Part shown: piece after piece, positions 6,636 to 53,948 of the stretch
Layout: every line of letters starts with the position of its first letter
Numbering within the stretch: position 1 is the stretch's first letter
Assembly (NCBI GenBank): GCA_024398135.1
Contig: CP073750.1
Coordinates: 682,001-746,000 of the forward strand
Length of the DNA: 64,000 nucleotides
DNA from: a bacterium SCSIO 12643
GTDB taxonomy: Bacteria > Bacteroidota > Bacteroidia > Flavobacteriales_G > Salibacteraceae
Direction of reading: 5' to 3'
Program-made: the position numbers and the translations under genes
Notes under the pieces: generated by a model
Databases searched by the model: none
What the model saw: the letters and a program-made list of their open reading frames with translations, nothing else
Told to the model about the DNA's origin: nothing

Positions 6636-6666
6636 AATAAATCATTTACGAGCCTCAAGATAATCT

Positions 6667-7983: not shown

Positions 7984-7992
7984 GAATTATTG

Positions 7993-8952: not shown

Positions 8953-8995
8953 ATCAATATTATTTATTCCTACTTAATTCCCCCATTTAGCGACA

Positions 8996-9003
8996 CAAAT
9001 GTA
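8996..9003 (-). promoter_or_regulatory. Putative ftsY -7 element (TACATTTG)
   Basis: An exact TAnnTTTG match on the minus strand, between the ribosomal-operon terminator and the ftsY ATG. A TTTG occurs further upstream at 9032-9035, but at 28 bases it is too far to count as a standard -33 box. Confidence 0.5.
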
Positions 9004-9030
9004 CATTGAAATCTATCTGAATTTAATAAT

Positions 9031-9071
9031 TCAAAAAAAAAGCTTCTTTAGAAGAATCCAAAGAAGCTTTT
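9031..9071 (-). terminator. Terminator of rpmB-rpmG-DUF4295 operon
   Basis: The 12-bp arms 9038-9049 and 9060-9071 (AAAAGCTTCTTT and its complement) flank a ten-base loop. On the minus strand the stem is followed by a run of T (complement of 9033-9040). It lies 20 bases past the DUF4295 stop. Confidence 0.85.
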
Positions 9072-9090
9072 CTGTAATTAATTTTCTTAA

Positions 9091-9243
9091 TTATTTTGAG
9101 ATGAACTCATTTACTTTGTCAGTTGGCACAAGTTTTTCTTCAAACATATATGCCCCAGTTTTTGGTGATCTAACTGTCTTAATAACTTTAGTAATGCTCT
9201 TTGCACCACCTTTACCTAACGTTGCTACTGTTTTCTTAGCCAT
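9091..9243 (-). CDS. DUF4295 family small protein
   Basis: A 50-residue basic protein found by translating the minus strand from the ATG at 9241-9243. It begins MAKKTVATLGKGGAKSITKV and ends TDKVNEFISK. The sequence and position directly after rpmG match the DUF4295 family, a Bacteroidota-restricted small protein conserved next to rpmB-rpmG. The composition (Lys-rich) and locus suggest a ribosome-associated role, but that is inference. It starts 16 bases after rpmG and is followed by the operon terminator. Confidence 0.92.
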   Translation of the reverse strand: MAKKTVATLGKGGAKSITKVIKTVRSPKTGAYMFEEKLVPTDKVNEFISK

Positions 9244-12764: not shown

Positions 12765-14003
12765 TTATTTAATAATTTGGTTTAGGGAATCTAAATATTT
12801 ATTAGCAATTACTTTGCGATCAAAATGTTTCTTAGCATATGAATATCCATTTTCACCTTGTTCACTTAATTTATCATTTGAATAATCCAAGAACTTGCGA
12901 ACTACCTTCTCAATTTCTAAGCTATTTTCTGGCTCGGCATATAATCCACATTCTGCATTTTCTACCAATTCCCGACTTACACCATCTATCAAAAGTAAAA
13001 TTGGCTTCTTACACGCCATATAGTCGAATGTTTTATTGGAGTAGATAGTTTTAAACGTATCGACCTTCTTCAATACAGATGTTCCAATATCTGAAGCCAA
13101 AATGTATTTAAATACTTCACTTTTTGAAACAGGGTCCCTAAATACAATATTTTCTAATCCTCTTTTTTTAGTTTCTTCAACTAGCATATCTTTTTGCATT
13201 CCAGAACCAATTAACTGAAAAATCACGGAAGTATCTTTAAGTAATTCAGCAGCATCAACCAACTGAATTAGATGGTTCGCCACACCATGCGCCCCAACGT
13301 AAGTAATTACACATTTATCCTGAAATCCTAAATCCTTCTTAAACTGTATCGCGTCAAAACGCTTTAAGAGTTCATCCGATAACTGAAAATCAGCAGCATT
13401 TGGTAACATAATTACCTTTGACTTTGACACCTTCTTTTCTTCTATTAATTTCTTTTGAAAAGCGGGAGTAAGCGTATTAATCAAACTAGCCCTTTCATAA
13501 ATAAAGTTTTCAAACCAAAAGGCGAATTTAATAAGTAGTTTATTTGTCAACACTCCAGTATCAATAGCCGATTCAGGCCATAAATCTCTAATTTCAAATG
13601 CAAATGGAATTCTTTTGATTTTTGAAATGACATAAGCTGTAATTCCAACAAATAGCGGAGGACTTGTAACCACTATTACATCGAATTTCCCTTTTGTCTT
13701 AAACAATCCAGCCCAGATACTACTGAAAACAAACGAAAAATAAGCCCACATCCTTCCAATAAAGTTTACATTATAGGCCTCGGAAACATGACAACGAACA
13801 ATGTTTACTTTTTCGTGTTGATCTTTAAAAAACCATTTATTCCTATAACGGTCTGCTTTTTTTCCTGTAGCATAATGCACCATTCCAGCTAAAACAGTTA
13901 CCTCATGTCCTAACTCAGTCCATTCTTTGGTCATTTCATTAAACCTGGAACCTCCACCGTCATCTTTTTCAAGAAAATACTGGTGAATTAATAATATTTT
14001 CAT
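12765..14003 (-). CDS. Glycosyltransferase family 4 protein (WbuB-like)
   Basis: A 412-residue GT-B fold transferase beginning MKILLIHQYFLEKDDGGGSR. The glycine-rich acceptor-side opening, the IRDLWPES motif and the C-terminal EX7E-like region (SNKTFDYMACKKPILL) are typical of the WbuB/WcaL group, which often acts directly after a priming transferase. Its neighbour 4 bases downstream is exactly such a transferase, so it may add the second sugar. Its 5' end overlaps the heparinase-like gene by 35 bases, an unusually long coding overlap. Confidence 0.88.
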   Translation of the reverse strand: MKILLIHQYFLEKDDGGGSRFNEMTKEWTELGHEVTVLAGMVHYATGKKADRYRNKWFFKDQHEKVNIVRCHVSEAYNVNFIGRMWAYFSFVFSSIWAGLFKTKGKFDVIVVTSPPLFVGITAYVISKIKRIPFAFEIRDLWPESAIDTGVLTNKLLIKFAFWFENFIYERASLINTLTPAFQKKLIEEKKVSKSKVIMLPNAADFQLSDELLKRFDAIQFKKDLGFQDKCVITYVGAHGVANHLIQLVDAAELLKDTSVIFQLIGSGMQKDMLVEETKKRGLENIVFRDPVSKSEVFKYILASDIGTSVLKKVDTFKTIYSNKTFDYMACKKPILLLIDGVSRELVENAECGLYAEPENSLEIEKVVRKFLDYSNDKLSEQGENGYSYAKKHFDRKVIANKYLDSLNQIIK

Positions 14004-15879
14004 CGATCGTTATTTCAGTTTTAAAATACTTCCCCGAGCTTTCTAATTCGAGCTGTTTGAATGGTGTTAACATACCATATTGAACAGCATTCCAGCCATC
14101 TTTATCGGAATATTGCATTAATTCCCCATTCGTATCGTAGGTCTTCAAAGAAATGAACTTTTCATATCTTGACAAATAATTCCAGTGTAATTTTACATTA
14201 TTATCATTCGTATCACCTAAAACTTCATCCTCTACAATCCAATTCAGCTGACCTTTTACTTTATTTATTTTTCTCGATATCCAAATCCCGCCAGTTTCTT
14301 CTTTAAATCCAAAGTATTTCCCCGAATATGAAAATACATGATCCTCCTCTTCCAAAAGGTTTTCTGTTCGCTTAATCCAATTGTACCAAATGAACCTATC
14401 TCCCTTAAACATTTGATCATACCTTCCAATTTGAATGCTATTGTGTCCTCCAGTACCAAAAAAGAAATCTACATACTTTTTCTCCGTATTATACTTATAG
14501 GTTCCAGGATCAAAAAAAACATTATGCCCTGACACGTGTATATCTAAATGTAATTGATCACTTTGCGCAGGTCTATTTATATAACAAGGATTATTGATAA
14601 CCGTAGTAGTTACATCATCTTTAATTACATATTGACCAGCTATTTCGAATTCCTTGATATGCGAATTAGATTCATAATTCTGCATCTTACTTCCATTCGT
14701 TAATCCATACCATTGTGCATCTGTATACAGGGATTCTTCTATAGGTAAGTCTAACAAAATTCTTAATGCCTGCAATTGAGGTCTAAAATCCCTAAAATGT
14801 TGATCTGAAAATGGAAAAAACAATGCGCCATCATTTTGTCCATAATTGGGTAACCACCCCGTTTCTCTTTGACATAACTCAGATAAAAACTCAACACTTT
14901 TAACGGCCCTTTCAATCACAACTTTCGAGAAGGACTCCTTGTGCTTTCTTGCTGTCAATATTCCCCATGTCATTAGTTGTATAACCACTCTATGGTAGTT
15001 ATGACTATACTGCAAAAAACCTCCATCTTTATACAGCTGATAAACTATTTCAGTTTCAAACCATTTTTTTCCTTTTATACTCCAACTCTTAGCATTTGGA
15101 ATAAATGGGAACCATTTACCAATCATATATAGCGCCAACGTTTCAGTAATCGCGTGATTATTTCTAACTGCTATCCTAGAAAAGTTTATGTTGTTAAATA
15201 TATGATGGTAGTGTGCATATATGGAATCGATTATTTTGTCAAATAACTTTTGTGTTAAATACTCGCTATTTCTATAATAAAACAATGCATAGGACCAATT
15301 AAATATACGTATACTCATTTCCTGACTACACTTATATTGAGGACCGAAATTTACAGGGTTATGATCAATAAAACTCTCTATCTCATTGAATATAAAATCA
15401 TCTTGACTTTCTCCTGTTTGTTTTTCGTACTTAATCAAACTATAAACGAAGGAAAATCTAGCTTTTTCCCAAACATATTTTATATCTCCTATTTCAGAAG
15501 AAAAATCATTTATTTCAGTAAAGTGTTTCTGAGGATAAACATAACCACTTATTGGGTGTTTGGCCCAATTGGAAATTTTTATCCATTGGTGACCAAAAAA
15601 AAGTATTTCACCAGCTTTTATTCGTTGGACAGTTCTTTTTAAATTTTCTAATTGTTGATCGTCATAAGAAGATACAGATAAATTATTAAAATCAATAAAA
15701 AAATCAGATTCAAACCCTCTCCAATTATCAAGTGTAGGCTTCTCAAAAGGAGGAAACGAGGTTGGGAATTTTTTTTTTATCAATCCAAGTTTTGAACCCA
15801 ATAAATATCCAACACGAAAACTAACGTAACGCCATCCCATGTTGGTAAACAACTGTAATATTAACCTTAAACTCCTCAA
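13969..15879 (-). CDS. Heparinase II/III-like protein of polysaccharide cluster
   Basis: A 636-residue protein. The N-terminal half is an alpha/alpha-toroid (RNNHAITETLALYMIGKWF, FLQYSHNYHRVVIQLM) and the C-terminal half a heparinase II/III beta-sandwich (QLHLDIHVSGHNVFFDPGTY, FFFGTGGHNSIQIG). These are lyase-fold motifs. No signal peptide is visible. Such proteins occur inside O-antigen/EPS clusters together with a two-domain oxidoreductase, as here, where they may modify or trim glycan; catalysis is unproven. The start is a TTG overlapping the wecB TGA (TTGA at 15876-15879). An ATG at 15838-15840 would remove 13 residues that look like family sequence. Confidence 0.8.
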   Translation of the reverse strand: MRSLRLILQLFTNMGWRYVSFRVGYLLGSKLGLIKKKFPTSFPPFEKPTLDNWRGFESDFFIDFNNLSVSSYDDQQLENLKRTVQRIKAGEILFFGHQWIKISNWAKHPISGYVYPQKHFTEINDFSSEIGDIKYVWEKARFSFVYSLIKYEKQTGESQDDFIFNEIESFIDHNPVNFGPQYKCSQEMSIRIFNWSYALFYYRNSEYLTQKLFDKIIDSIYAHYHHIFNNINFSRIAVRNNHAITETLALYMIGKWFPFIPNAKSWSIKGKKWFETEIVYQLYKDGGFLQYSHNYHRVVIQLMTWGILTARKHKESFSKVVIERAVKSVEFLSELCQRETGWLPNYGQNDGALFFPFSDQHFRDFRPQLQALRILLDLPIEESLYTDAQWYGLTNGSKMQNYESNSHIKEFEIAGQYVIKDDVTTTVINNPCYINRPAQSDQLHLDIHVSGHNVFFDPGTYKYNTEKKYVDFFFGTGGHNSIQIGRYDQMFKGDRFIWYNWIKRTENLLEEEDHVFSYSGKYFGFKEETGGIWISRKINKVKGQLNWIVEDEVLGDTNDNNVKLHWNYLSRYEKFISLKTYDTNGELMQYSDKDGWNAVQYGMLTPFKQLELESSGKYFKTEITIDENIINSPVFS

Positions 15880-19151: not shown

Positions 19152-21032
19152 TTATTTTTTCCAGCTAAATTGCTTCAGCCAACTTTGTAATGCCAGCAGG
19201 CTTAAGATCGTATAGCCATGGTCCTCTTTTCCAGAATTATGATCATCTAATAATCTCTGTACCGCTAAGGGAGAGAAAATACCTTGTTGTGCTAGTGAAT
19301 CCGAACTTAGATAGGTTTCAATTAATGGTTTAAGTTCATTACTAATCATATCACGTACCGGTGCACCAAAACCTGTTTTTGATCTATATATAACCTCTTT
19401 AGGTAAATATCGTTCTGCTACCTTTTTTAATATATACTTTGCTTCTCCTCCCTTTATCTTAAAAGAATCCGGAATCATGTTAGCCAAAGCCACCAACTCA
19501 AAATCAAGAAAAGGTACCCTTGCTTCAACACCTTCCAACATTGACATTTTATCGGTATAATTTAAATTATGATCTACTAAAAAAGTAGCCTGTTCAAGAT
19601 ATAACATTTGCTGTAGCAGCGATTCTCCTTTATTATTAGCTAATATTTGTTCACCATAATTATTGGGGTTATAATCATCACTTAATTCCGGCACAATCTC
19701 ATGAACAAAATTGTTATTTGGTAACCAATTAAAATACCCTAATAAACGTTCATGCGATGTTTTACCCCAATCCCTGCTTAATTTATTCATTCTCCTAAAA
19801 AAAGGAATTTTACCTGGTAACATGTTAATTATACCTTTAAAAAGGTAGAGCAATCCCTTTGGAACTTTCTCAATTTTTTCTTCTAATAAGATTGCATGAT
19901 GGCGTCTATAACCACTAAACAAATCATCTCCTGCAGCTCCTCCAATCAAAACTTTTATCCCTTTTTTCTTTGCCAAATTGCAAATCAATCGAACATTTTC
20001 TGGTGCTAAATCTGCTTGCGGCTCATCCAATGTATAAATCATTTGATCAAACCTATCGACACTTCCTCCATCAATATCTACTTCATGAAGATTCACTCCA
20101 AGGTGTTGAGCTACTTTCCTTGCATATGGCAAATCATCAGAGAATCCTTCTTTTCCTTTATTCGTTGATGTGTTTATCGTAAAACAATCCAGATCTAAAT
20201 TTGGATTTTGTTTTCTCGCCATTGCAACCAATAAACTAGAATCCAGACCTCCAGATAGGAAAAAACCAAGCGGTACATCTGACAACATTTGTCTTTTAAC
20301 CGCACGATTCAGTACCTCATCAACTTTATCAATCCATTCTTCTTCTGTTAATTTTGATAATATTTCATTTGGACTGTAAAACTCTCCTTTTTGGCTTTTA
20401 ACGGAATTATCTTTAAGGTTAACCTCAAGTTCAAATCCCGGTAATACTTTCTTTACACTTTGATACATCGTATCCTCTCCGGGACTCCATAAAAAACTTA
20501 AATAATTCCCTACAGCATCCAAATTAATCCTATTATCAAAGAACTTTAAACTATTAAATGACTTTAGCTCTGAAGAAAACACGAATTGATCCTTATCTTG
20601 GTATACATATAGAGGCTTAACACCATAAGGATCTCTAACCACATTTAAACAAGATTTTTTAAGGTCGTAGATAGCAAAAGCAAATATTCCATTTAATCTT
20701 TTAAGAATCTCTCGCCCCTCATGAATCCAACCTTTTAATAATGTTTCTGTATCAGAACCCGAATTAAATTCTACATTATATTTTGACTTCAAGTAATCCC
20801 TAATATCTAAGTGATTATAAATCTCCCCATTAAAAATAACAACAAATTTTTCATCCTCCGATATCATTGGCTGATTACCGGCTGCACTTGTATCAATAAT
20901 ACTTAACCGTGTATGACCCAGATATAAATTACCATTAGAATAACTTGATGAATAATCCGGCCCTCTCTGTAAAATGGATTTTAAAGGGTCTTCAACCCAT
21001 TTAGCATTAACACTTCCAACTATTCCACACAT
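19152..21032 (-). CDS. asnB: AsnB-type glutamine-dependent amidotransferase of glycan cluster
   Basis: A 626-residue class II glutamine amidotransferase fused to an ATP-pyrophosphatase synthetase domain. The catalytic Cys2 is in MCGIVGSVNA; the PP-loop SGGLDSSLLV follows near residue 260, and YTDKMSMLEGVEARVPFLD is conserved. The general family makes asparagine. Inside O-antigen clusters, homologues amidate the carboxyl of a uronic acid residue. The co-located nucleotide-sugar dehydrogenase makes that role the more likely one here, but asparagine synthesis is not excluded. The start overlaps the preceding glycosyltransferase stop by 13 bases. Confidence 0.88.
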   Translation of the reverse strand: MCGIVGSVNAKWVEDPLKSILQRGPDYSSSYSNGNLYLGHTRLSIIDTSAAGNQPMISEDEKFVVIFNGEIYNHLDIRDYLKSKYNVEFNSGSDTETLLKGWIHEGREILKRLNGIFAFAIYDLKKSCLNVVRDPYGVKPLYVYQDKDQFVFSSELKSFNSLKFFDNRINLDAVGNYLSFLWSPGEDTMYQSVKKVLPGFELEVNLKDNSVKSQKGEFYSPNEILSKLTEEEWIDKVDEVLNRAVKRQMLSDVPLGFFLSGGLDSSLLVAMARKQNPNLDLDCFTINTSTNKGKEGFSDDLPYARKVAQHLGVNLHEVDIDGGSVDRFDQMIYTLDEPQADLAPENVRLICNLAKKKGIKVLIGGAAGDDLFSGYRRHHAILLEEKIEKVPKGLLYLFKGIINMLPGKIPFFRRMNKLSRDWGKTSHERLLGYFNWLPNNNFVHEIVPELSDDYNPNNYGEQILANNKGESLLQQMLYLEQATFLVDHNLNYTDKMSMLEGVEARVPFLDFELVALANMIPDSFKIKGGEAKYILKKVAERYLPKEVIYRSKTGFGAPVRDMISNELKPLIETYLSSDSLAQQGIFSPLAVQRLLDDHNSGKEDHGYTILSLLALQSWLKQFSWKK

Positions 21033-30250: not shown

Positions 30251-31344
30251 TAATTGTTAATAGTATCTACTACCAATTCCAACTCATCTTTACTCAAGAC
30301 CCCACTCATTGGTAAACTTAAGACTTCATTGTGTAGTTTTTCTGTTAAAGGATAGCTTTGATCTTTATAATTACTATACGCTTTTTGTTTATGTGGTGGT
30401 ATTGGATAGTGAATAATAGTACTCACCTTATGATCCAACAGATATTTTTGAAATTCTTCTCTGTTTGATATTCGAATAACAAATAAATGCCAAACGTGAC
30501 CTACTTCACTCAATACTGTAGGCAACACAAGCTTTTCATTATTAATATTTGTCAGATAAAAGTTTGCCACGCTTCTTCTTGCATCAATATCATCTTTTAG
30601 GTATTTCAATTTCACATTAAGAAATGCAGCTTGCATTTCGTCCATTCTAGAATTATATCCCTGGTACATATTTTCATATTTAACATGCGATCCATAATTC
30701 CTTAAAGCCGAAATTACATTCATCAATTCCTTGTCATTCGAAGTTACCGCTCCAGCATCACCGAGCGCTCCTAAGTTTTTACCTGGGTAAAAACTATGCC
30801 CTGTAACATCTCCTATACCACCTGATATTTTTCCATTCCACTCGGCACCATGTGACTGGGCACCATCTTCAACCACCTTCAGTCCATATTTCTCCGCAAG
30901 AGCTAACATGTTATGATCTATGGATATTTGTCCATATAAATGAACAGCTAAAATTGCCTTAGTTTTTGAAGTAATTTTTTCCTCAATTTTAGCACTATTA
31001 AGATTGTAGGTACTTTCGTTAGGTTCTACAAATACTGGTATCAAATTATTATCCGTAACAGCCAATACCGAAGCGATATAAGTATTTGCAGGAACAATAA
31101 CCTCGTCTCCATGATTCATTACTCCCATCTCAATATAAGCCCTAAAAATCAGACGTAAAGCATCTAAACCATTCGCCACACCCAAAGCATATTGAGTATT
31201 ACAAAATTTGGCATAGTCAGACTCAAATTGATTCAACTCTTCTCCTAATAAATACCACCCTGAATCAATTACTCTATTTGCTGCTTCCTTTAATTCCTGG
31301 TGATATTGTGCATTTACTTTCTGTAAATCCAAAAATTTAACCAT
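30247..31344 (-). CDS. dTDP-3-keto-6-deoxyhexose 3-aminotransferase (QdtB/FdtB-like)
   Basis: A 365-residue PLP enzyme of the DegT/DnrJ family, with Lys189 in [18 protein letters not shown], Asp160 in [11 protein letters not shown] and the early [11 protein letters not shown] typical of FdtB/QdtB. It would convert a dTDP-3-keto-6-deoxyhexose made by the adjacent ketoisomerase into the 3-amino sugar, which the N-formyltransferase then modifies. The gene order rmlB-rmlA-cupins-formyltransferase-this gene supports the pathway. Whether the product is the gluco (Qui3N) or galacto (Fuc3N) isomer depends on the ketoisomerase and is not determined. Confidence 0.9.
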
Positions 31345-32530
31345 TGTTCAATACTTTATTTATACCATTAAAATGTTGGTTATTTGGATCAAGATAATCT
31401 AAAACTGAAAGTCCTTTCCAATCTTTTTTATCAATACCAACTCCCAGTTTAATAAGCCTTTCTATCATTTTTAGATCACCACTAATCTCTGCATACGATT
31501 TAGCATACATTAAGACTGTAGTGCCTTTAAAATTCTCACTATTAACGTCTGCCCCATTTTGCAACAAATATTCAAACAAATCCAAATATCCGTTATACGC
31601 AGCTATTATAATGGCATTCCACCCTTTTTTGTTTCTGAAATTCACATCGTCAATAAACGAAATCATATTCTTAATACCATCCAAATCATTCTTCTCAACT
31701 AATTTGATGAATTTCAAATAGTAATCTTTAAACAATCGAATATTATAATCAATTGTTGAAATTTCGAAATACTCATCCGTCTCTTCGAAAATCGTTCCTG
31801 GCTTAAATACACTAGCAACATTTGTCATTTCACTTTTGGCTATTTCCCATCCTTTATAACTAACCAACTGATAATCTCTAAAACTAAATGCTCTAATAAA
31901 ATTATGCACTTGATATGCACATTGCTGAAAGTTGATTTTAATATTTGAGAAATCAATGGTCGTTCTGGAGTAATAAGAAGCTCCCTCACAAGGTTGCTTT
32001 TGGGATGTTTCCGTCCCATTTAAAAGACTTGGTAAATTTGCTTTAAACAAATCAAAACTTTTGTCCAAAAACGCTTGATACAAATCCCGACTATTCATGT
32101 CCAAAGAAATTGGAATACGCTCTTGCGAAATGATCTCTCCTGTATCAATTCCACGATCAATTCTATGTAAAGTTACTCCTGTAAACTCCTCACCATATAA
32201 AATTGGTAATACCGCAGTAAACATTCCCTTGTAGCTTGGCAACATAGAAAAATGAACGTTATATAATCTTTTCGTAGCAAATAACTTTGGTTTAATAATC
32301 TGATCAAACTCTAACGACAAAAATAATAAGTCTCTAATGCCATATAAATCTTTAAGCTCTAGAATCGGCAGGTTTCTATTTTGAGCTTCAAACTTTAAAG
32401 ATGGTTGCCAGTCTGGAATTCCTGAATCAGTCCTATTAGCAACAACTACTAATTCTTCATTTGGGTAGTTTTCATGAATATAGATTAGCGCATTCACCGC
32501 TATTTCATTTTTTCCCGCAATACAAATCAT
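31337..32530 (-). CDS. Sugar N-formyltransferase with C-terminal ankyrin repeats (QdtF-like)
   Basis: A 397-residue protein. Residues 1 to about 200 form the N10-formyl-tetrahydrofolate-dependent formyltransferase fold with the catalytic triad Asn91, His93 ([14 protein letters not shown]) and Asp129 (GIDTGEI). A small beta domain follows. Residues about 280-397 hold ankyrin repeats ([59 protein letters not shown]). The same architecture is known from Providencia QdtF, where the ankyrin part contains a second nucleotide-sugar site. It sits between the cupin and 3-aminotransferase genes, so the likely product is a dTDP-3-formamido-3,6-dideoxyhexose. Overlaps with both neighbours are short. Confidence 0.9.
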
Positions 32531-32937
32531 TTTTGAGCTTTAAAGTCTTTATAATCTCTAATATAATCACTTTCTGTATATACCTCAGAAGCCAACACCA
32601 TACAAATTGATCCTGAAGAAAAGTTCTCTAACTCACGCCATAAACCCGGTACAATATGCAAAGCAAGATTCGGTCTATTAAGAGTCACTCTTTTTTTATT
32701 GGTTCCATCATCTAGAACAACATCAAAACTTCCACTCGCAGCAATTATAAATTGTTCTAACTCTAAATGTCCATGTCCCCCTCTTGATTCTCCTCCTGGC
32801 ACATCATATAAGTAATATATTCGTCTAACATCAAATGGAATATTATTTCCATTCTCAACAACCGTTATATTTCCTGAATCGTTATGGACCTTGCCTATAT
32901 CGATTATCGAACAATCAAAAACTTTATTATCCTTCAT
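32527..32937 (-). CDS. FdtA/QdtA-type 3,4-ketoisomerase, intact HxH
   Basis: A 136-residue single-domain cupin. It shares the family frame IPFDVRRIYYLYDVPGGESR, then GGHGH with His55 and His57, the histidine pair used in FdtA/QdtA catalysis, then [18 protein letters not shown] and SDYIRDYKDF. It should convert dTDP-4-keto-6-deoxyglucose to the 3-keto isomer. It is the second of two tandem cupin genes, overlaps the first by 11 bases and the formyltransferase start by 4. Of the two it is the better candidate for the active enzyme. Confidence 0.88.
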   Translation of the reverse strand: MKDNKVFDCSIIDIGKVHNDSGNITVVENGNNIPFDVRRIYYLYDVPGGESRGGHGHLELEQFIIAASGSFDVVLDDGTNKKRVTLNRPNLALHIVPGLWRELENFSSGSICMVLASEVYTESDYIRDYKDFKAQK

Positions 32938-33337
32938 CGTTAAATTTTATCCCCTTAAACTCATCAAAATCTCTAATATAATCACTCTCCTTAAATGGAA
33001 TCGAAGACACAATTAATGCTAAAGAGTTTGTAGAAAAATTTTCTAATCTTCTCCACAACATATTAGGCACATATACCCCGTAATACGAACGGTTCAATGC
33101 AAACCTCATTTCTTTATCACCATCATTTAATACTACATCGAAACTTCCGGATAATGCAATGATAAATTCATGAGATTCTTTAAACGCATGACTCCCTCTT
33201 ATTTCTCCTCCTGGAACATCATAAATCCAATAAGCTCTTCTTATTTCAAATGGAATTTGATTTTGATTTTCAAAAAAGCTAAGATTCCCTCTTCTATCCT
33301 TAATCTTAGGCAATTCAATTATATATGGCTTACTCAT
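32927..33337 (-). CDS. FdtA/QdtA-family cupin with altered HxH
   Basis: A 136-residue paralogue of the next gene, sharing [34 protein letters not shown] and [11 protein letters not shown]. At the catalytic site it reads [10 protein letters not shown]: His50 is kept but the second histidine of HxH is replaced by Phe52. It may therefore be inactive alone, have another specificity, or act as a partner subunit of the HxH paralogue. Its ATG overlaps the rmlA stop by four bases, and its 3' end overlaps the paralogue by 11. Confidence 0.85.
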
Positions 33338-44290: not shown

Positions 44291-45244
44291 ATGTTTTTTA
44301 AAATACTCAGTAATCTAAAAAATAAGCTTTATCAGATTACATTTATTCGGAAACTGGTATTTTTTGTCAAGCATGTTAAAATCCCATTCTTTGGTGGTCT
44401 TGAAATTTACAAGGTAGGAATATTCTTTATTCGTGGCTTAGCAGGTGGTTTTTTGACTACAAGAGCCGCTGCAATTGCATTTAATTTCTTTCTTGCAATT
44501 TTTCCATCAATAATTTTCATCTTTAGTTTAATCCCATTCATTCCTATAGATGGTTTTCAGGAAGAGCTGCAAGCAGAATTATTATTTGCCGCCCCAAAAA
44601 TCATGGATACTTTCCTTGAAGATACTTTATTTGATATCATAAAAAACAAACATACCAGTCTACTTTCTTTAGGTTTTATTCTGGCCATGTATTTTGCCAC
44701 AAATGGAATTAACTCATTACTCACTGCATTTGTAATGTCTTACCATACTGAAGAACATCATGCGAGATCTTGGTTCTCTCAACAAATAACAGCTATAATG
44801 CTGACGATTTTCCTAACTATATTTCTATTTATAGCAATATTCTTAACCATTTTTGGAGGGCAAATTATCCAATTTGTATTCGATACGATATTAGACTTTA
44901 GTCGATTTGACATTCTTCTCATCAATCTGGCAAGATGGATAATTATTATCGCATTTATCTATTTTTCAGTAGCCTTTATATATTTCTATGGGCCTAAGCA
45001 AAAAGTTCAGTTTTTCTCTCCGGGAGCCTCATTAGCCACGATTGCAGTAATTCTATTCACCTTGGGGTTTGCTTTCTATATCGACAACTTTGCTTCATAT
45101 AACAAACTCTATGGATCCATTGGAACGGTTATGGGGATTATGCTTATGATTTACTTAAATAGTCTCGCGCTACTTATCGGGTATGAACTTAATGCCGCAA
45201 TTGAACATGGGAGTACACATATTCGGTTAGAAGAGTATGAATAA
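44291..45244 (+). CDS. YihY/BrkB-family inner-membrane protein
   Basis: A 317-residue polytopic membrane protein with about six helices. Family motifs are AAAIAFNFFLAIFPSIIFI, PKQKVQFFSPGASLAT and LYGSIGTVMGIMLMIYLNSL, ending at the helix holding GYELNAAIEH. The family was once called tRNA-processing RNase BN by mistake. Recent work on related proteins suggests transport or lipid-envelope roles, but the function is not settled. Last gene of the nadC operon; it converges on the T9SS type B gene with one base between. Confidence 0.9.
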   Translation: MFFKILSNLKNKLYQITFIRKLVFFVKHVKIPFFGGLEIYKVGIFFIRGLAGGFLTTRAAAIAFNFFLAIFPSIIFIFSLIPFIPIDGFQEELQAELLFAAPKIMDTFLEDTLFDIIKNKHTSLLSLGFILAMYFATNGINSLLTAFVMSYHTEEHHARSWFSQQITAIMLTIFLTIFLFIAIFLTIFGGQIIQFVFDTILDFSRFDILLINLARWIIIIAFIYFSVAFIYFYGPKQKVQFFSPGASLATIAVILFTLGFAFYIDNFASYNKLYGSIGTVMGIMLMIYLNSLALLIGYELNAAIEHGSTHIRLEEYE

Positions 45245-45245
45245 A

Positions 45246-48200
45246 TCACCTCACAATAGTAAAACTACCTTGAACCGGCTTTTCATTCTGTCCTAAAAAA
45301 AGAGTATAAAAATACACTCCTTCCGGAACATTGTATGCATCCCAAAAATTTCTATAATTGGTTGTCTGGAAAATAATCACTCCCCATCTATTAAAAATTG
45401 TCAGTTCATTAGTTTCAAACTTTCCAATATTCGGGAACTCCAAATAATCATTAATTCCATCTCCATTTGGTGTAATCACATTCACACTCACCACATCATC
45501 AGATATTCTATAATTAAATTTCACCGAATCTATACATCCATTTTCTGCCCAAACTTTATGTAATATTTCTAAATTTTGTCCTGAATAAAATGTGATATCC
45601 AGATCCTCATTCTCTGAAAGAATAGAATCATTCACATTCCAAAACCACCGCACTAAATTTCCAGGACTAATTTGAGAATCATCATAAAAAGTTAGCGGGA
45701 CATATGCCATGGAAACATCCTCTGGATCCACGGTAATTCCTGCATTGGGAGCGGGTATAAAATTTAATTGAAACGTATCCACATAGATACATCCATTTGA
45801 ATCGAATACTCGCAATTCATGTTGACCATAATTCACATAGATGGAATCTAAAGTATCTCCACTACCCCATTCGTAAAAATGATTATTCTGTCTATTAAAA
45901 GTTAGCAGCCCTTGCATATTTTCACAAACTTCACTCTCTCCTACAATGGTAACCTCAGGACTTGATGACGTGACTTTAAATAGAGGAGATTTTGCAGTGC
46001 AACCATCATTATTTCTAACAAAAACTGAATATACTCCAGCTCTCACTTTAATACTGGAATCTGTCTCATTTGTGGACCATAAATAGTGATCAAACCCGCT
46101 AATATTCAGTATAGCAGAATCTTCAAAACAGTAATGATTTATTCCCTGAATGACGGGATAAATCGATGGTTTAACAACAACATCAATTGTATCAGATGTA
46201 ACACAATACCCCTTATCCTCAACAGTCACAGAATATATCCCTGGGTTTGTGTATGAAATCCCCGGACTAGTTTCTCCAGTATTCCAAATAAATTGCTGAT
46301 AACCCAAATCAACATATAAAAAACCTCCGTTGGTATCACACATCACAGTATCTCCCAAAATCTGCACAGTATCAGGTGTATTCATTGTGATCGTGACCGT
46401 ATCTGTAGTTGCAAAGCATGAGTCTAAATGTACCACGCACCAATAATCTCCCGGAGCATTTATATTCGTTGAAAAACCGATGCTTCCATTGCTCCATTGA
46501 TATAAATCAAATCCGAACTCAACCGTAAGTTGCGTACTTTGTCCTGGACAGATTTCAGTAACTCCATGGACATCGACACCATTTATTAGTTCATTTACAC
46601 GATGCCATTTAACAGAAGAACAACCATCTTTCCATGCCGTAACTCTTTTCCAACCATATCCTGTATATATAGTGTCGGTGATATCTCCCGTGTTCCAAAA
46701 CAATGAATCCCAAACATCTCCAACCGCGACTAATCTGGCACTATCCACAGTATCACAATAAAATAAATTACCCAAAATCCCTAAACTCGGAGTATCTACA
46801 CCTAAAATATTAAAACTCAATGAATCAATACACGTACTGTAAGAAACCTCTACAAAATGTAACCCTGGAATAGAATAAATGCTACTTTGCGCTGTTATTC
46901 CATTATCCCATAAATAAGAGTCAAATACACTATTTACGGAAATTACGGTACTTTCATCCCCACAAATAACCGAATCCCCGGAAACAGTCAACGTTGGATA
47001 TGTTACATCCCCAATTAAAATACTATCATATGCATGGCACACCGTGCCATCTCCAGAAAATTGAGTAACTGTTATTAAATAATTTCCTGCGAGCACATTA
47101 ATAGAATTAGATATATCACCCGTACTCCAAAGAATACTATCATAGATATCAGGAACAAATAGTATCACCGAATCACCATTACATGAATTTACATTGCTGG
47201 CCGCAAGATTAACATCATGATCACTAAAACTTGTAATTTCAACGCTATCGGAATTTACACATCCATCATTAAATACTGTTACAGAATAAACACCTGGTTG
47301 TGTTATATTAATTTTAAATACTGAATCTCCAGTATTCCATTGATACATATCATTATTATCAAAAACACTTAACTCCAAAGTATCTGGAAGACAAATAAAT
47401 GGTTCAGATACTATATCTGAATTAGGGATATTTGCTTTTACCAAATGGCTCACTGACTTCTCGCAGTGGTTATACCCAACTGTTACTGTATAAATTCCAG
47501 GAGTAACATTTATTACACTTGATCTCCCTCCATTGCTCCATAAGTACGTTTCATATACTGAAGCGACTGATAATTGTGTTGTGTCATAACTACAAATGAT
47601 CGTATCTCCTATGATATTCACCGGTTCAGGTAGACTATCTATTTGAACAACAAGTTCTATTTCATAAAAGTGACCTGGCTGACCATTATCAATTATTGTA
47701 ATTGGTATCGAATGAACTCCGATATTATTAACTCCTCCAACAATTTCCAAATCTAATGAAGCTACGTTTCCTGTAATTATATTAGTTATTTTTTGCCCAA
47801 TAAACGCACTGGTATCCGCATTGATATATGTTAATTGATCTGTTTCAGGCGCAAAGAAATATAACGTTTCTCTAAGCGTATCACCAATGCAAACTCCAAT
47901 GGTATCTTTTAATTTATCACCTAAAACACCAGGCTTATTATTCAATGAATCACATGGATTTAGATAAATCGTTTTTCCTTCTAATGCCAACACTCCATTT
48001 AAAGAATCTTTAGACACAGAAAAAGATGTATCATTTTTATTAAAAGCTCCGATACTTGAGTATCTAGTTCCATCCCCATAATTTAGTCCTATTTGTGCTG
48101 GTGCTCCTCCAAATCCTCCGATACCTCCCGAACCATCTCCTGTAGTCCATTCCATATTATCGTAAAAGAAACCTATCGTATAGCCAAAAGGTAATAACTC

Positions 48201-48740
48201 AGAAGATCCATCTGTAATGATTAATTGAAAAGAATTTCCTTTTGAAGCATTTTGTTCATAATACCCTACATCCTCCCAGGAAACAATCAATGCATTGGGT
48301 AATAATTTGTAAAAAACACCACCTCTACTTCTGGTATCAACATCCGACCAATACGGAGCAATAACCTGAAAATTAGAAAAAGGCATTGCGATTGGGGTAC
48401 CCGTAGAAAATGATTGATCAAACGAAATATTACCATTTGAATTGATATAAACTTCGTTTTTCACATCTCCCCACCAACAAAAGTCAAATGGTAAATTAAT
48501 CAAAGCGGAACTCCCATCATCACTTGGGGGTATAGCTTGAATAAAAGATGAATCAGAAGGACCTAACGAATAGCTGGCTCGATTAGCGTTTAACCTGATA
48601 CTATAGGATTCAAAAAACGACAATTTCGAAGTTCCCTTTAACTTTGCATACTCATTTTCACTAATAGATATTTGGCCCCATATCTTCGTGACAAACAACA
48701 TTTGCATCAAAAAAACACCTATATGCAACAGTCTAAACAT
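45246..48740 (-). CDS. Large T9SS type B surface protein: NIDO domain plus nine ~70-residue repeats
   Basis: A 1164-residue secreted protein; the ATG at 48738-48740 is preferred over a TTG just before it. After a signal peptide (to about 23), residues about 80-260 match a nidogen-like domain (VYINSNGNISFD, YWSDVDTRSRGGVFY, NMEWTTGDGSGG). From about 375 to 995, nine Ig/PKD-like repeats occur about every 70 residues. Each has a W-[NSD]-[TSN]-G core and a GxYxVxV strand, paired with cysteines. The last 80 residues form the gliding-motility-associated type B sorting domain (ITPNGDGINDYLEFPNI, FNRWGVIIFQT, VPEGVYFYTL). Probably a cell-surface adhesin or structural protein exported by T9SS. Confidence 0.92.
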   Translation of the reverse strand: MFRLLHIGVFLMQMLFVTKIWGQISISENEYAKLKGTSKLSFFESYSIRLNANRASYSLGPSDSSFIQAIPPSDDGSSALINLPFDFCWWGDVKNEVYINSNGNISFDQSFSTGTPIAMPFSNFQVIAPYWSDVDTRSRGGVFYKLLPNALIVSWEDVGYYEQNASKGNSFQLIITDGSSELLPFGYTIGFFYDNMEWTTGDGSGGIGGFGGAPAQIGLNYGDGTRYSSIGAFNKNDTSFSVSKDSLNGVLALEGKTIYLNPCDSLNNKPGVLGDKLKDTIGVCIGDTLRETLYFFAPETDQLTYINADTSAFIGQKITNIITGNVASLDLEIVGGVNNIGVHSIPITIIDNGQPGHFYEIELVVQIDSLPEPVNIIGDTIICSYDTTQLSVASVYETYLWSNGGRSSVINVTPGIYTVTVGYNHCEKSVSHLVKANIPNSDIVSEPFICLPDTLELSVFDNNDMYQWNTGDSVFKINITQPGVYSVTVFNDGCVNSDSVEITSFSDHDVNLAASNVNSCNGDSVILFVPDIYDSILWSTGDISNSINVLAGNYLITVTQFSGDGTVCHAYDSILIGDVTYPTLTVSGDSVICGDESTVISVNSVFDSYLWDNGITAQSSIYSIPGLHFVEVSYSTCIDSLSFNILGVDTPSLGILGNLFYCDTVDSARLVAVGDVWDSLFWNTGDITDTIYTGYGWKRVTAWKDGCSSVKWHRVNELINGVDVHGVTEICPGQSTQLTVEFGFDLYQWSNGSIGFSTNINAPGDYWCVVHLDSCFATTDTVTITMNTPDTVQILGDTVMCDTNGGFLYVDLGYQQFIWNTGETSPGISYTNPGIYSVTVEDKGYCVTSDTIDVVVKPSIYPVIQGINHYCFEDSAILNISGFDHYLWSTNETDSSIKVRAGVYSVFVRNNDGCTAKSPLFKVTSSSPEVTIVGESEVCENMQGLLTFNRQNNHFYEWGSGDTLDSIYVNYGQHELRVFDSNGCIYVDTFQLNFIPAPNAGITVDPEDVSMAYVPLTFYDDSQISPGNLVRWFWNVNDSILSENEDLDITFYSGQNLEILHKVWAENGCIDSVKFNYRISDDVVSVNVITPNGDGINDYLEFPNIGKFETNELTIFNRWGVIIFQTTNYRNFWDAYNVPEGVYFYTLFLGQNEKPVQGSFTIVR

Positions 48741-48829
48741 CAAAACAATATAACTCTTACTTCAATTACTGGCAAAGGTCAACACATAATAATAACTACA
48801 CAATTAATTTTTCACTTAATTTGCAAGCG

Positions 48830-48878: not shown

Positions 48879-49820
48879 ATGAGCAATACAAAAGTTTCTA
48901 CTCCACAATTATCGGTGATTGTTTGCACTTATAATCGTGAAAAGTACATTTTAAGAAATCTTGAAAGTTTCATAAATCAAACTGCGGATTACTCTGAATT
49001 TGAAGTTATTATCATCAATAATAACAGTCCAGATAATACGGACCAAATATGTCGCCACTTCATAAAGAACAATCCTAAAATTCAAACGACATATGTTATT
49101 GAAAAAAATCAAGGACATACTTTCGCTAGAAATAGAGGGATAAAAGAATCTAACAGTAAAATTTTAGCCTTCATAGATGATGATGCTTTTATACGTCCAG
49201 AATACTGTGAAAACATTATAAAATTCTTCTCTCAACATCCAATGGTAGATATTATCGGAGGTAAAATTATCCCTGTTTACGAATCTGGAAAAGAACCAAA
49301 TTGGATGTCTCCTTATCTTCTTACATTAATGGCTGCTCAAGATTATGGCGATCAAGTCAAAGAGTTTAATAAGAATAAATTTCCAATTGGGGCAAATATG
49401 ATTTACCGATCAAGTGTTTTTGACAAGATTGGTTTATTCAACACAGAATTAGGACGAAGAGGTGATGGTTTAGAAGGAGGAGATGAAAAAGATTTGATAC
49501 ACAGATTTAGGCAAACAGACGGACTTATTTACTATGTTCCAAACGTTGTCGTTGACCATATAATTGGGATACATCGTGAAGACATGAAGTATATCAAAGC
49601 CATGGGTATTGGTGTTGGCACTAGTGAAAGAACCAGGTTAAAAGAATCTGGAACAAATGTTATTTTAGAAAAAATACTCATGGAAACTTTTAAATCCATG
49701 GCTACTCTTATTCTTTTAATATTTTACTTACTAACTATTAGACCATCAAAAGGATGGACTCTTGTAAAATTCAGATTCTGGGTTATTCAAGGATTAATTT
49801 TAGATAAACAAAGACAATGA
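48879..49820 (+). CDS. Glycosyltransferase family 2 protein
   Basis: A 313-residue GT-A transferase opening the second glycan island. It has LSVIVCTYNREKYILRNL, VIIINNNSPDN, the metal-binding FIDDDAFIRPEY, and a C-terminal hydrophobic segment (MATLILLIFYLLTI) that may anchor it in the membrane. The next gene starts inside its stop codon (ATGA), so the two are coupled. Product linkage is unknown. Confidence 0.9.
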   Translation: MSNTKVSTPQLSVIVCTYNREKYILRNLESFINQTADYSEFEVIIINNNSPDNTDQICRHFIKNNPKIQTTYVIEKNQGHTFARNRGIKESNSKILAFIDDDAFIRPEYCENIIKFFSQHPMVDIIGGKIIPVYESGKEPNWMSPYLLTLMAAQDYGDQVKEFNKNKFPIGANMIYRSSVFDKIGLFNTELGRRGDGLEGGDEKDLIHRFRQTDGLIYYVPNVVVDHIIGIHREDMKYIKAMGIGVGTSERTRLKESGTNVILEKILMETFKSMATLILLIFYLLTIRPSKGWTLVKFRFWVIQGLILDKQRQ

Positions 49821-50844: not shown

Positions 50845-51474
50845 ATGATAGGTAATCTACTTCGAAAATATTTATTAAAACTGAAGCATCCAACCGCAAA
50901 ATGTTCAAAATCGGCTGTAATTAATAATGTTGACTTTGGAGAATATACTCAGGTGACCTCAAATGCATCCCTAAGCAATACTAAACTCGGTGACTATAGT
51001 AGTGTTGGTAGAAACACAACTATCAACCATGCTGATATTGGGAAGTTTTGCAGCATTAGCTGGAATGTTACTATTGGCGCCACTTCACATCCAGATAATC
51101 ATATAACTACACATGCTTTTCCATACATTAGCCAATTTGGGATGGTTAAAAAAAATAAAAAAATAAAAGTAAAAACTATCGTTGGGAATGATGTGTGGAT
51201 TGGTACAAATGTAGTTATTATGCCTGGTATTAGTATTGGAAATGGAGCCATTATTGGAGCTGGCAGCATTGTAACAAAAAATGTCCCTGATTATGCTGTC
51301 GTTGTTGGTGTTCCCGCTAAAATTACTCGCTATAGATTCACATCTCAAGAAATAAATATCCTTTCAAAATTAGAATGGTGGAATTGGCCTAGAGAAAGGA
51401 TTAAAAATAATATTGAATTATTCAAAATTCCAATTACGGAAAGCCTGCTAAAAAAACTAAAAGATATTAGTTAA
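50845..51474 (+). CDS. Hexapeptide acetyltransferase, CatB/xenobiotic type
   Basis: A 209-residue left-handed beta-helix acyltransferase. The repeats SVGRNTTINHADIGKFCSISWNV are followed by the ATSHPDNHITTHAFPY loop with its likely catalytic His. The helix then continues in DVWIGTNVVIMPGISIGNGAIIGAGSIV and closes with VVGVPAKITRYRF. The CatB-like loop also occurs in many capsule and O-antigen acetyltransferases, and the neighbours favour that role over antibiotic resistance. Its end overlaps the convergent next gene by eight bases. Confidence 0.87.
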   Translation: MIGNLLRKYLLKLKHPTAKCSKSAVINNVDFGEYTQVTSNASLSNTKLGDYSSVGRNTTINHADIGKFCSISWNVTIGATSHPDNHITTHAFPYISQFGMVKKNKKIKVKTIVGNDVWIGTNVVIMPGISIGNGAIIGAGSIVTKNVPDYAVVVGVPAKITRYRFTSQEINILSKLEWWNWPRERIKNNIELFKIPITESLLKKLKDIS

Positions 51475-52342
51475 CACTTTTACGTTTAAACGCATCAATA
51501 AAAGAATTTGGTGTCAAATTAATTATTTCACACCCTATCGATTTTGCATATCCATCGATAACAAAGTAAGATTTAAATGCGTAAGTAAACTTTTGTAACA
51601 CTTCATATAATTTACGATCAAATGATTTACTATTTGCATTATACATTTTCTTTTCTTGCGCTTCCTTTTCATCGTAAAAGTGTTTTTGAACCATTACTAC
51701 TTGATTTTCTTCTGTCACCCTAACATATGGCATCCAAGAATGATCTGCCCCCAAAATATTTATTGTTTTATAACCCAAATTAATACCAACAACTAACGCT
51801 GGAATCAAAACATTATGTGGTCTAGGCAACCCTAATCTATTCCTCATAATCCAATTAGCTATTTTCTGATTTCCATCAATTGGCGTCATATTAACAAAAT
51901 AGATTTTTATTCGTTTATTCTTCGAAAAATATCCTAAGGCATTTTTACAATTCTTAGCAGTCAATGGAGCTATAATTGATAAATTCCATTCAGTATCATA
52001 AATCAACGGATCTGCGGTTTTGTAAAACTCATCTTTCAGAAATTGATCATGTTCATGATCCCAAAACTCAATCGGAGTTAAAACCAATACCGAAGGTTTT
52101 AACTTTTTATACAAAGGAGACCTAGACAGATGATTTACACCTATTAAATCAGAGTTTAATATTAAATCATGATGTTCATCAATACTTTTAAGTAAACTTG
52201 GACCGTTACCTAAAATCAAAAGGTGTTTTCGATTACCTTTATTAGGCAAAGGTTCCCTTTTCCATCCGCCAATAGCAACTTTCATTAAGGAAAGCCCCCC
52301 CATTACCAAATCAACAATTTTTTTCTCCGTTTTTGGATTCAT
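51467..52342 (-). CDS. Unassigned glycan-island protein with GT42/DUF115-like motifs
   Basis: A 291-residue soluble protein, not assigned with certainty. Visible motifs are LLILGNGPSLLKSID (46-60), PRPHNVLIPALVVGINLGY, NILGADHSWMPY, and LTPNSFIDAFKR at the C-terminus. The order GNGPSL...xxxALGY...GxDxx...PNS resembles GT42 sialyltransferases and the DUF115/MptE-like group. It lies on the opposite strand between glycan genes, with its own TAGATTTG element. No CMP-sialic-acid synthesis gene is in the window. A glycosyl- or phosphotransferase role is inference. Confidence 0.6.
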   Translation of the reverse strand: MNPKTEKKIVDLVMGGLSLMKVAIGGWKREPLPNKGNRKHLLILGNGPSLLKSIDEHHDLILNSDLIGVNHLSRSPLYKKLKPSVLVLTPIEFWDHEHDQFLKDEFYKTADPLIYDTEWNLSIIAPLTAKNCKNALGYFSKNKRIKIYFVNMTPIDGNQKIANWIMRNRLGLPRPHNVLIPALVVGINLGYKTINILGADHSWMPYVRVTEENQVVMVQKHFYDEKEAQEKKMYNANSKSFDRKLYEVLQKFTYAFKSYFVIDGYAKSIGCEIINLTPNSFIDAFKRKSVN

Positions 52343-52408: not shown

Positions 52409-52416
52409 ACATTTGG
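52409..52416 (+). promoter_or_regulatory. Putative -7 element of second flippase gene
   Basis: TACATTTG, 47 bases before the ATG at 52464. A TTG at 52413-52415 that could open a longer frame is part of this element, which supports the downstream ATG. Confidence 0.5.
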
Positions 52417-52463: not shown

Positions 52464-53948
52464 ATGGGAAGTATTTCCAACCAAGCATTTAAATCTTCAA
52501 TTTTTTCATACTTAGGTGTTCTAATTGGATTTGTAACCATTGGATTTCTTTTACCAAGACTTTTTTCAACAGGTGAAGTTGGAGTTATTCGTCTAATTTT
52601 GAATTATTCTGAAATAGCAGCAAGAATTGCTGCTTTAGGCTCAGGAACTTTAATTCTTAGATATTTTAAATTATTCAAAAACCCAAACAATAAGAACAAT
52701 GGATTTCTCACCTATATGATTCTTATTAATATAATTGGTTTTATTTTATTCTTTGTTGGATTTCAGGTAGTAGATGATTATTTAATTGATCATAACCAAA
52801 GTAGATCACCACTTTTTGCTCAATATTTCAAATGGATTCTTCCTATAACACTTTCTGTGCTAATTTTCCATTTAATGGATACATACGCCACCGCTCTTAA
52901 ATTATCAGCTGTAGGAATCTTCTTTCGTGAATTTATTCAAAGAATACTAATTCTATTCCTATTGGTTGGAACTGGAATTTTTATTTTGCCTTTCTCAACT
53001 ATTATTGGTTTATACATGCTAATAATTATCTCAACGCCACTTTTATTAACAGTCTATCTTCAACATAACAACCATTTAGGATTAGGGATAAACTTAAATT
53101 TTTTAAACAAAAAACTGCTATCAGAGATGGGCTCTGTGGCTAGTTTCGCTCTTTTCACTGGTATTGGAGGCACAGCCGTTGTTTTCATAGATAACATCAT
53201 GATTAATGAATTAATGGGAGAAAATCAAACCGGAATCTACAGCACTCTTTTCTTTTATACCGCTTTAATTTTAATCCCAACTAAAAGTATTTCGAAAATA
53301 GCCTCATCTTATGTCGCTGATGCCTTTGTTAGTAACAAAATAAATGAAATAAAATCCATATACTATAAAAGTTGTTTAAATCAATTTATCCCGGGGCTTC
53401 TCATTTTCATATTCATCTGGACAAATTCTGATTTTATTTTCTATATACTCCCATCAGAATATCAAAATGGAAAATATGTACTTCTTATATTGGGAATTGG
53501 TAATCTTTTTAATGCTGCAACTGGAGTAAACACTCAAATAATTGCATTCTCTCCTTTTCACAAATATAACACCATATTCATCATAGGACTTTTAATAATA
53601 ACCATCGTATCAAATATTGTTTTTATTCCAATATATGGTATAACAGGAGCTGCAATTGCGACTGCTATTTCACTATTCACATTTAATCTTGCGAAATTTC
53701 TACTGATATTATTAAAATATGGACTTCAACCATTTGACAAAAAATACCTTATTCTAATTTCAATAACCTTACCAATTCTTTATCTTGGAAGCTTAATCGT
53801 AATCGACAATATATTTCTTCAATCTACATTAAGAACGATTCTTGTTTTTTTGCTCTTTGTTATACCCACTTATTCGTTAAATATTTCTCCGGACTTAAAT
53901 GCATTTATTATCAATCTAGTAAAAAAATATGTCCCTTTTAGTTTTTAA
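52464..53948 (+). CDS. Second Wzx-type oligosaccharide flippase
   Basis: A 494-residue polytopic membrane protein of the MOP superfamily with about fourteen helices, starting MGSISNQAFKSSIFSYLGV, a standard family beginning. GFLLPRLFSTGEVGVIRLI and the late segment TGAAIATAISLFTFNLAKF are typical. The longer TTG-initiated frame is rejected because its start lies within a promoter element. It differs clearly from the Wzx at 28772-30250, so it may serve a second glycan made by the neighbouring genes. It converges with the YfhO gene, overlapping by four bases. Confidence 0.88.
   Translation: MGSISNQAFKSSIFSYLGVLIGFVTIGFLLPRLFSTGEVGVIRLILNYSEIAARIAALGSGTLILRYFKLFKNPNNKNNGFLTYMILINIIGFILFFVGFQVVDDYLIDHNQSRSPLFAQYFKWILPITLSVLIFHLMDTYATALKLSAVGIFFREFIQRILILFLLVGTGIFILPFSTIIGLYMLIIISTPLLLTVYLQHNNHLGLGINLNFLNKKLLSEMGSVASFALFTGIGGTAVVFIDNIMINELMGENQTGIYSTLFFYTALILIPTKSISKIASSYVADAFVSNKINEIKSIYYKSCLNQFIPGLLIFIFIWTNSDFIFYILPSEYQNGKYVLLILGIGNLFNAATGVNTQIIAFSPFHKYNTIFIIGLLIITIVSNIVFIPIYGITGAAIATAISLFTFNLAKFLLILLKYGLQPFDKKYLILISITLPILYLGSLIVIDNIFLQSTLRTILVFLLFVIPTYSLNISPDLNAFIINLVKKYVPFSF

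Follow-up and report, generated by a model that had tools for sequence, protein, structure and literature searches.

Organisation of the locus

The window, a stretch of 64,000 nucleotides of the bacterium SCSIO 12643 (bases 682001-746000 of genome G000, a single contig of 4.12 Mb), carries at 51467-52342 on the minus strand an open reading frame, here called P0001. It opens with ATG, has no internal stop and encodes a protein of 291 aa, a predicted CMP-nonulosonate transferase, probably for pseudaminic acid (Pse), with a GT42/Maf-like fold. All motifs from which a distant GT42-like transferase was originally proposed are present in this frame and in the proposed order: LGNGPSLLKSID, ALVVGINLGY, GADHSW, VQKHFYD and TPNSFIDAF.

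Three plus-strand genes lie on one side of P0001: a GT2 glycosyltransferase (48879-49820), a polysaccharide pyruvyltransferase (PF04230, 49817-50839) and a hexapeptide-repeat acyltransferase (50845-51474), the 3' end of which overlaps the 3' end of the transferase gene by 8 bases. On the other side follow a Wzx-type flippase (52464-53948, plus strand) and a membrane protein of the YfhO family (PF09586, 53945-56491, minus strand). The flippase frame opens at a TTG at 52413, but by eye the ATG at 52464 is the likelier start. A Pfam scan at E <= 10 returns nothing for this protein itself, but the PF01943 flippase at the matching site of G005, a genome from the same taxonomic family, shares 38% identity with it.

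Several of these neighbours recur beside relatives of P0001 in other genomes. Homologues of the GT2 gene stand directly before the transferase in four other loci, at 37-56% identity (56% in G005, 51% in G007). Homologues of the acyltransferase are found at most four genes from the transferase in 12 of the 37 other loci; identity to the transferase-adjacent acyltransferases is 36-43% in eleven loci and 29% in G005. Homologues of the YfhO-family protein are also present in two further family loci (L064 and L071). Of the 37 genomes that carry the transferase family, 4, this one included, have a pyruvyltransferase match at E <= 1e-8.

The corresponding chromosomal site of G005, recognised by the shared flanking clusters c70-c73 and YfhO, contains a GT2, the transferase, the acyltransferase, a PF02348 CMP-sugar synthetase, NeuB and a flippase. 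The NeuB there scores best on the NeuB_NnaB model and exceeds neither the PseI nor the NeuB cut-off. Judged by this comparison, the module in the window appears to be a nonulosonate glycan module that has been rearranged: the transferase is inverted, the synthesis genes are located elsewhere and a pyruvyltransferase is present. The comparison puts no date on the rearrangement.

The original prediction described the gene as a possible separate acquisition with a promoter element of its own, and neither part found support. Homologues of the GT2, the acyltransferase and the flippase are found near the same gene elsewhere, and its G+C content is ordinary (0.314, compared to 0.295-0.354 in six neighbours). 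A scan of the minus strand between 51300 and 52600 found no sigma-70-like site, and the two TTTG-N17-21-TANNTTTG sites in the window are not close to the gene. By eye, a lone TAGATTTG is seen about 35 bases ahead of the ATG.

Some other features of the window can be described here. The frame at 45246-48743, flanked by the GT2 gene and by the conserved gene at 44291-45244, encodes a repetitive, secreted-looking protein of 1165 aa, and the corresponding place in G005 is occupied by a 300-aa protein without a Pfam hit. At 31337-32530 a formyltransferase is fused to ankyrin repeats (PF00551 and PF12796). Next to it are a DegT aminotransferase and two genes of the FdtA family (32527-33337). Together these genes probably represent a pathway for a formylated amino sugar, within a large minus-strand polysaccharide cluster that also holds a heparinase II/III-like protein and an asparagine-synthase-like protein (13969-15879 and 19152-21032).

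Distribution of the family

P0001 is the only match at E <= 10 within its own genome. The gene is conserved, with relatives at E <= 1e-5 in 36 of 395 genomes of the same class, its own genome counted. Together with one genome from the nearest 100, these form a set of 37 genomes with 38 family genes. Among the named records with relatives (37 loci) are Solitalea longa, Emticicia aquatilis, a Fluviicola MAG and many uncultured Bacteroidetes. A phylum-wide profile search, in which no more than six candidates were scored per genome, found the family at E <= 1e-20 in at least 7 of 395 genomes, two of these outside the class. Four genomes counted as family-negative (G003, G006, G084 and G087) give partial, weak matches to the family profile and each has a strong NeuB, so the family probably includes more divergent members as well.

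The search of plasmids returned no family match, and the search of phages returned one fragment. Positions 12-383 of record MT837593.1 encode a C-terminal piece of a family relative (32.5% identity, E 2e-14). This is an unannotated 6.6-kb record from human faeces labelled "Bacteriophage sp." and it could be a mislabelled bacterial fragment.

Relationship to GT42, MptE-like and Maf proteins

The original prediction proposed a distant kinship of P0001 to both GT42 and the DUF115/MptE-like proteins, and this kinship is supported by profiles, by hhalign and by the fold. The family profile matches CstII with E 7e-4. In local mode, hhalign gives 96.6% for the profile of 62 family members against three GT42 sequences, while 15 decoy clusters from the same neighbourhoods reach at most 2.7%. 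With an alignment of 32 rows the value is 95.6%, and in global mode, run without decoys, it is 97.8%. The realigned local match covers just 55-57 columns at the N-terminal end, and the C-terminal part alone gives 31-57%.

Membership of GT42 as defined by the Pfam CST-I model (PF06002) was rejected: none of the 32 family members matches at E <= 1, while both GT42 positive controls do (L080 with 582.8 bits and L081 with 53.8 bits). In a Pfam scan of P0001, the only match at E <= 10 is MptE-like (PF01973), at 16 bits and thus under the gathering score of 34.6. This model is matched at E <= 1 by 31 of the 32 members, and two of the five members scanned singly exceed its gathering score (L016 with 37.5 bits and L021 with 35.8 bits), the other three remaining under it. 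Three of the 32 members match NCBIfam PseD and 13 a PHROG named alpha-2,3-sialyltransferase, both at E <= 0.1. As judged by the Pfam models, the family is nearer to MptE-like/DUF115 (PF01973) than to GT42. In the accessible text of one study, PF01973 is the central domain of the Maf glycosyltransferases and is said to resemble Cst-II (PMC11339370). P0001 can therefore be described as a relative of GT42 and Maf that is not a GT42 protein by the CST-I model.

Predicted structure

The AlphaFold2 model of P0001, built from an alignment of 32 members, has a pLDDT of 92.7 and a pTM of 0.91. Its top VIA-align match is the Maf structure 5mu5 (Z 14.1, 201 residues, rmsd 3.9). CstII and CstI entries follow with Z 10.5-11.9, the best being 1ro8 (Z 11.9, 183 residues, rmsd 3.7), and the Pasteurella sialyltransferase 9c08 is matched with Z 10.4. 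Foldseek ranks GT29 ST8SiaIII, HPPK and Maf on top, and CstII is absent from its best 50 matches. The guess of a GT42-like fold is borne out by the predicted model, which matches both Maf and the GT42 enzyme CstII. From these computations, P0001 is predicted to be a small single-domain glycosyltransferase with a modified GT-A (Rossmann-like) fold of the GT42/Maf type. The function is not given by the fold alone, because Corynebacterium SteA (Z 10.7 and 10.0) and thiamin pyrophosphokinases (up to Z 8.3) have the same fold.

Conserved residues

The motifs named above belong to the conserved parts of the protein. Six positions are invariant in all 62 aligned family sequences (G47, P48, P83, G198, N275 and D283), and N70 and H221 are kept in 61 of the 62. 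MAFFT pairs six residues of CstII with counterparts in P0001: N9/N46, G10/G47, S12/S49, N31/N70, G152/G198 and D154/D200. CstII R129, Y162 and H188, residues with functional roles, stand opposite P175, A228 and T253, the last two pairs lying in an unreliable stretch of the alignment.

The histidine of VQKHFYD had been suggested as a candidate for the GT42 catalytic base, which is His188 in CstII. In the alignments this histidine, H221, is conserved but does not stand opposite His188. Both hhalign and MAFFT place the FY of HFYD opposite Phe155-Tyr156 of CstII, with Y223 facing Tyr156 and H221 in a gap beside them, so that these alignments lend the suggestion no support. In the alignment, His188 has no clear counterpart in P0001, which counts against the reading as a nonulosonate transferase.

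Linkage to nonulosonate synthesis genes

A strong NeuB (E under 1e-40) is present in all 37 family-positive genomes and in 39 of 72 family-negative ones (Fisher 7.6e-8), where the negatives were drawn separately from most positives and the 72 are what remained of 94 after 22, mostly but not solely less complete genomes, had been dropped. With NeuB counted at E <= 0.001, the contrast is weaker (37 of 37 versus 49 of 72, Fisher 2.9e-5).

Within the positive genomes, the distance between the genes was counted after the 15 of 68 NeuB rows whose E exceeded 1e-50 had been removed. A strong NeuB lies within 15 kb of 26 of the 38 family genes; for eleven the contig contains no strong NeuB, and for P0001 the distance is 22.7 kb. 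PF04230 pyruvyltransferases failed as a linkage control since they are too rare, being found in 4 of the 37 genomes, and flippases were taken instead. In the same 37 genomes, 9 of 88 PF01943 flippases are within 15 kb of a strong NeuB (Fisher 1e-10). This first control was too favourable, because its limit of E <= 1e-10 missed flippases beside the family. The difference persists after correction: with 15 missed flippases from the family neighbourhoods added, 12 of them near NeuB, the count becomes 21 of 103 (Fisher 1.9e-7). A binomial with uniform placement would be an over-generous null, because glycan genes cluster.

Several family loci have the gene order transferase, PseB-like, PseC-like, further genes, NeuB and flippase. 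Counts of neighbours by cluster, at 21 of 37 and 30 of 37, are imprecise, because two of the single-linkage clusters, c2 and c3, combine other genes with PseB/LegB and PseC/LegC; for example, the galE-like gene of the window at 41394 was grouped into c2. By the NeuB counts, the family is genetically linked to nonulosonate synthesis.

Donor type within the family

Donor types were assigned to the 37 loci by best hits to reference genes. Eighteen are Pse-type, nine are Leg-type (legionaminic acid), two have NeuB only and eight have none in the examined stretch; three labels on short contigs (L040, L047 and L048) rest on one or two genes, and in L042 and L078, both labelled Pse, the synthase is closer to the Leg reference. 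Over the NCBIfam cut-offs are PseB and PseI in L073, and LegB, NeuB and NeuC in L077, the latter with a nucleotidyltransferase beside them that we take to be PtmE-like.

In a maximum-likelihood tree of 37 members, from which the distant member L057 was omitted, the sister of P0001 is L063 (support 99/95). It comes from the same taxonomic family and its locus has PseB-, PseF- and PseI-type genes. Four of the five rows nearest to P0001 by path have a Pse-type operon and the fifth is unlabelled. Several members, P0001 among them, sit on long branches, which counts against the function proposed below. The Pse and Leg labels require four changes on the tree. All three labels require six, versus 9.7 in shuffles and with none of 200 shuffles as low, a clustering to which near-copies contribute. 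The donor type varies within the family, as even the sisters L076 (Pse) and L077 (Leg) differ (support 99/98).

Nonulosonate genes in the SCSIO 12643 genome

The statement that sialic-acid genes are absent is correct for the window, in which there is no NeuB, but it does not hold for the genome, which has three NeuB matches outside it (at 757009, 763738 and 964706). It is an effect of the window edge, because a Pse operon starts 10.8 kb beyond the window end, 22.5 kb from the P0001 gene. In this operon (756793-762359) PseI, PseG, PseF, PseC and PseB each exceed the curated NCBIfam cut-off. Among the ten genes of the genome that were scanned on NCBIfam, a set that excludes the operon near 964 kb, five Pse steps and no Leg or Neu steps are over the cut-off. 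The second NeuB match scores best on NeuB_NnaB, yet under the cut-off. With three NeuB matches in the genome, the donor of P0001 is not fixed.

That the nearest NeuB match is 22.7 kb away, and not adjacent, has to be counted against the function proposed below, as has the lack of a nonulosonate gene in the examined stretch of 8 of the 37 loci. The Pse operon stands in a polysaccharide cluster of its own, with Wzy-like, Wzz and GT4 genes, and this cluster may hold its own transferase.

Two further regions of the genome are of note. At 955000-974000 (L062) there is another nonulosonate-type operon, with homologues of a dehydratase, NeuB, an acetyltransferase, an aminotransferase and a CMP-synthetase. 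Near the Pse operon, two genes of locus L060, one for 459 aa with a weak Epimerase_2 match (5839-7218) and one for 407 aa without a family match (7908-9131), are a possible second nonulosonate transferase or flippase.

Proposed function and alternatives

We consider it likely that P0001 is a stand-alone transferase that acts on a lipid-linked surface glycan with a CMP-nonulosonate as donor, probably CMP-pseudaminic acid. The PseB-C-F-G-I operon, some 22.5 kb distant, would supply CMP-Pse in the cytoplasm, and P0001, acting there too, would transfer Pse to a lipid-linked glycan that the local GT2 would help to build. The neighbouring acyl- and pyruvyltransferases may decorate this glycan and the adjacent Wzx-type flippase may export it, and its final carrier may be LPS, capsule or a protein O-glycan. 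The fold, the family, the linkage to nonulosonate genes and the presence of the Pse genes are computed results, while the CMP-sugar activity of P0001, its specificity for Pse, its acceptor and the participation of the adjacent genes in the same glycan pathway are inferred.

A different CMP-nonulosonate, of legionaminic or neuraminic type and made with one of the two other NeuB genes, would be a rather unlikely donor. Such genes could be provided by the second and third NeuB matches, the second being closest to NeuB_NnaB though under its cut-off, as is the NeuB of the corresponding G005 locus, and Leg-type genes adjoin nine of 37 family members. Yet the sister L063 and four of the five nearest rows are Pse-type, the fifth being unlabelled, and the ten scanned genes, the 964-kb operon not among them, gave five Pse steps and neither Leg nor Neu steps. 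It is improbable that P0001 is a WaaZ-like Kdo transferase acting with CMP-Kdo in LPS or capsule synthesis, the linkage to NeuB then reflecting the general clustering of surface-glycan genes. One of 32 members does match WaaZ models weakly (best E 0.0046), and PF02348 cytidylyltransferases, to which KdsB belongs, are present in all 37 family genomes. However, flippases are surface-glycan genes as well and they are less often near NeuB, 9 of 88 or 21 of 103 versus 26 of 38 for the family.

The view behind the original prediction, in which the gene is a recently acquired orphan whose donor and acceptor are unrelated to nonulosonic acids, appears very improbable. It would agree with an orientation opposite to both flanking genes and with the lack of NeuB inside the window, but not with neighbours (GT2, acyltransferase and flippase) that are homologous to family neighbours elsewhere, with a neighbour-like G+C content or with the corresponding chromosomal site in G005. 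We give hardly any weight to a pterin-type pyrophosphokinase, a function taken from the Pfam name of the nearest family. In its favour, 31 of the 32 members match PF01973 at E <= 1 and the model resembles the HPPK of M. jannaschii (8sd5) with Z 10.2, but P0001 itself, at 16 bits, is well below the cut-off of 34.6. The same Pfam family also names the central domain of Maf glycosyltransferases in the available text of PMC11339370, and an MptE function is disfavoured by the gene context, as the identified neighbours are mostly glycan and nonulosonate genes.

Comparison with known transferases

KpsS1 belongs to a capsule pathway. It is, like the proposed P0001, a Pse transferase, a retaining enzyme of GT118, but the accessible text describes it as kin to KpsC and the GT99 enzyme WbbB (PMC12887879), and by this description it is set apart. 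The same can be said of GtfS and TFUB4_00887 of Tannerella forsythia, which are likewise nonulosonate transferases from Bacteroidota, one acting with a Pse derivative, the other with a derivative of Leg; as described in the part of the text available, they have 445 and 442 aa and carry DXD, D/E-D/E-G and HP motifs (PMC6388019).

The central Maf_flag10/PF01973 domain of the Maf protein 5mu5 is the best structural match of P0001 (Z 14.1 over 201 residues) and falls in the same Pfam group; Maf enzymes transfer nonulosonic acids, as stated in the accessible text of PMC11339370. However, 5mu5 has 632 aa in three domains, while P0001 has a single domain in 291 aa, and Maf modifies flagellin, while the P0001 gene is flanked by glycan genes and a flippase. 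CstI and CstII of GT42 have a similar fold (Z 10.5-11.9) and six CstII residues align with P0001 counterparts, but PF06002 is matched by none of the 32 members at E <= 1, and MAFFT sets R129, Y162 and H188 opposite unlike residues, the last two in an unreliable stretch. The 6-hydroxymethylpterin diphosphokinase MptE (8sd5) shares the nearest Pfam model, PF01973, and a similar fold, but P0001 scores under the cut-off of that model, and the genes around the family are those of glycan and nonulosonate synthesis.

Nonulosonate transferases as such, Maf and GT42 among them, are already known. In literature listings and partial texts, outside subscription journals and CAZy, we found neither a function assigned to the P0001 family nor a description of such a free-standing family in Bacteroidota. 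In the accessible part of a review on protein O-glycans of Bacteroidota, published in 2025, the glycosyltransferases found at those loci are termed "largely uncharacterized" (PMC12871550).

Implications

It can be speculated, as a tentative generalisation that we would not yet favour, that the whole family consists of free-standing Maf/GT42-like enzymes of Bacteroidota that add Pse or Leg to lipid-linked surface glycans, with the donor switching between close relatives such as L076 and L077 and with the glycan of SCSIO 12643 also being pyruvylated. If this is true, donor specificity could be read from the paired sequences of L076 and L077, and this sister pair, one Pse and one Leg, could be used to locate the residues responsible.

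Glycans of Bacteroidota can carry pseudaminic and legionaminic acids, and a compact, sequence-recognisable family tied to Pse and Leg operons provides concrete candidates for assay. Its enzymes could become tools for attaching these sugars. The family also provides a link between Maf, GT42 and those proteins to which the misleading label "MptE-like" is attached.
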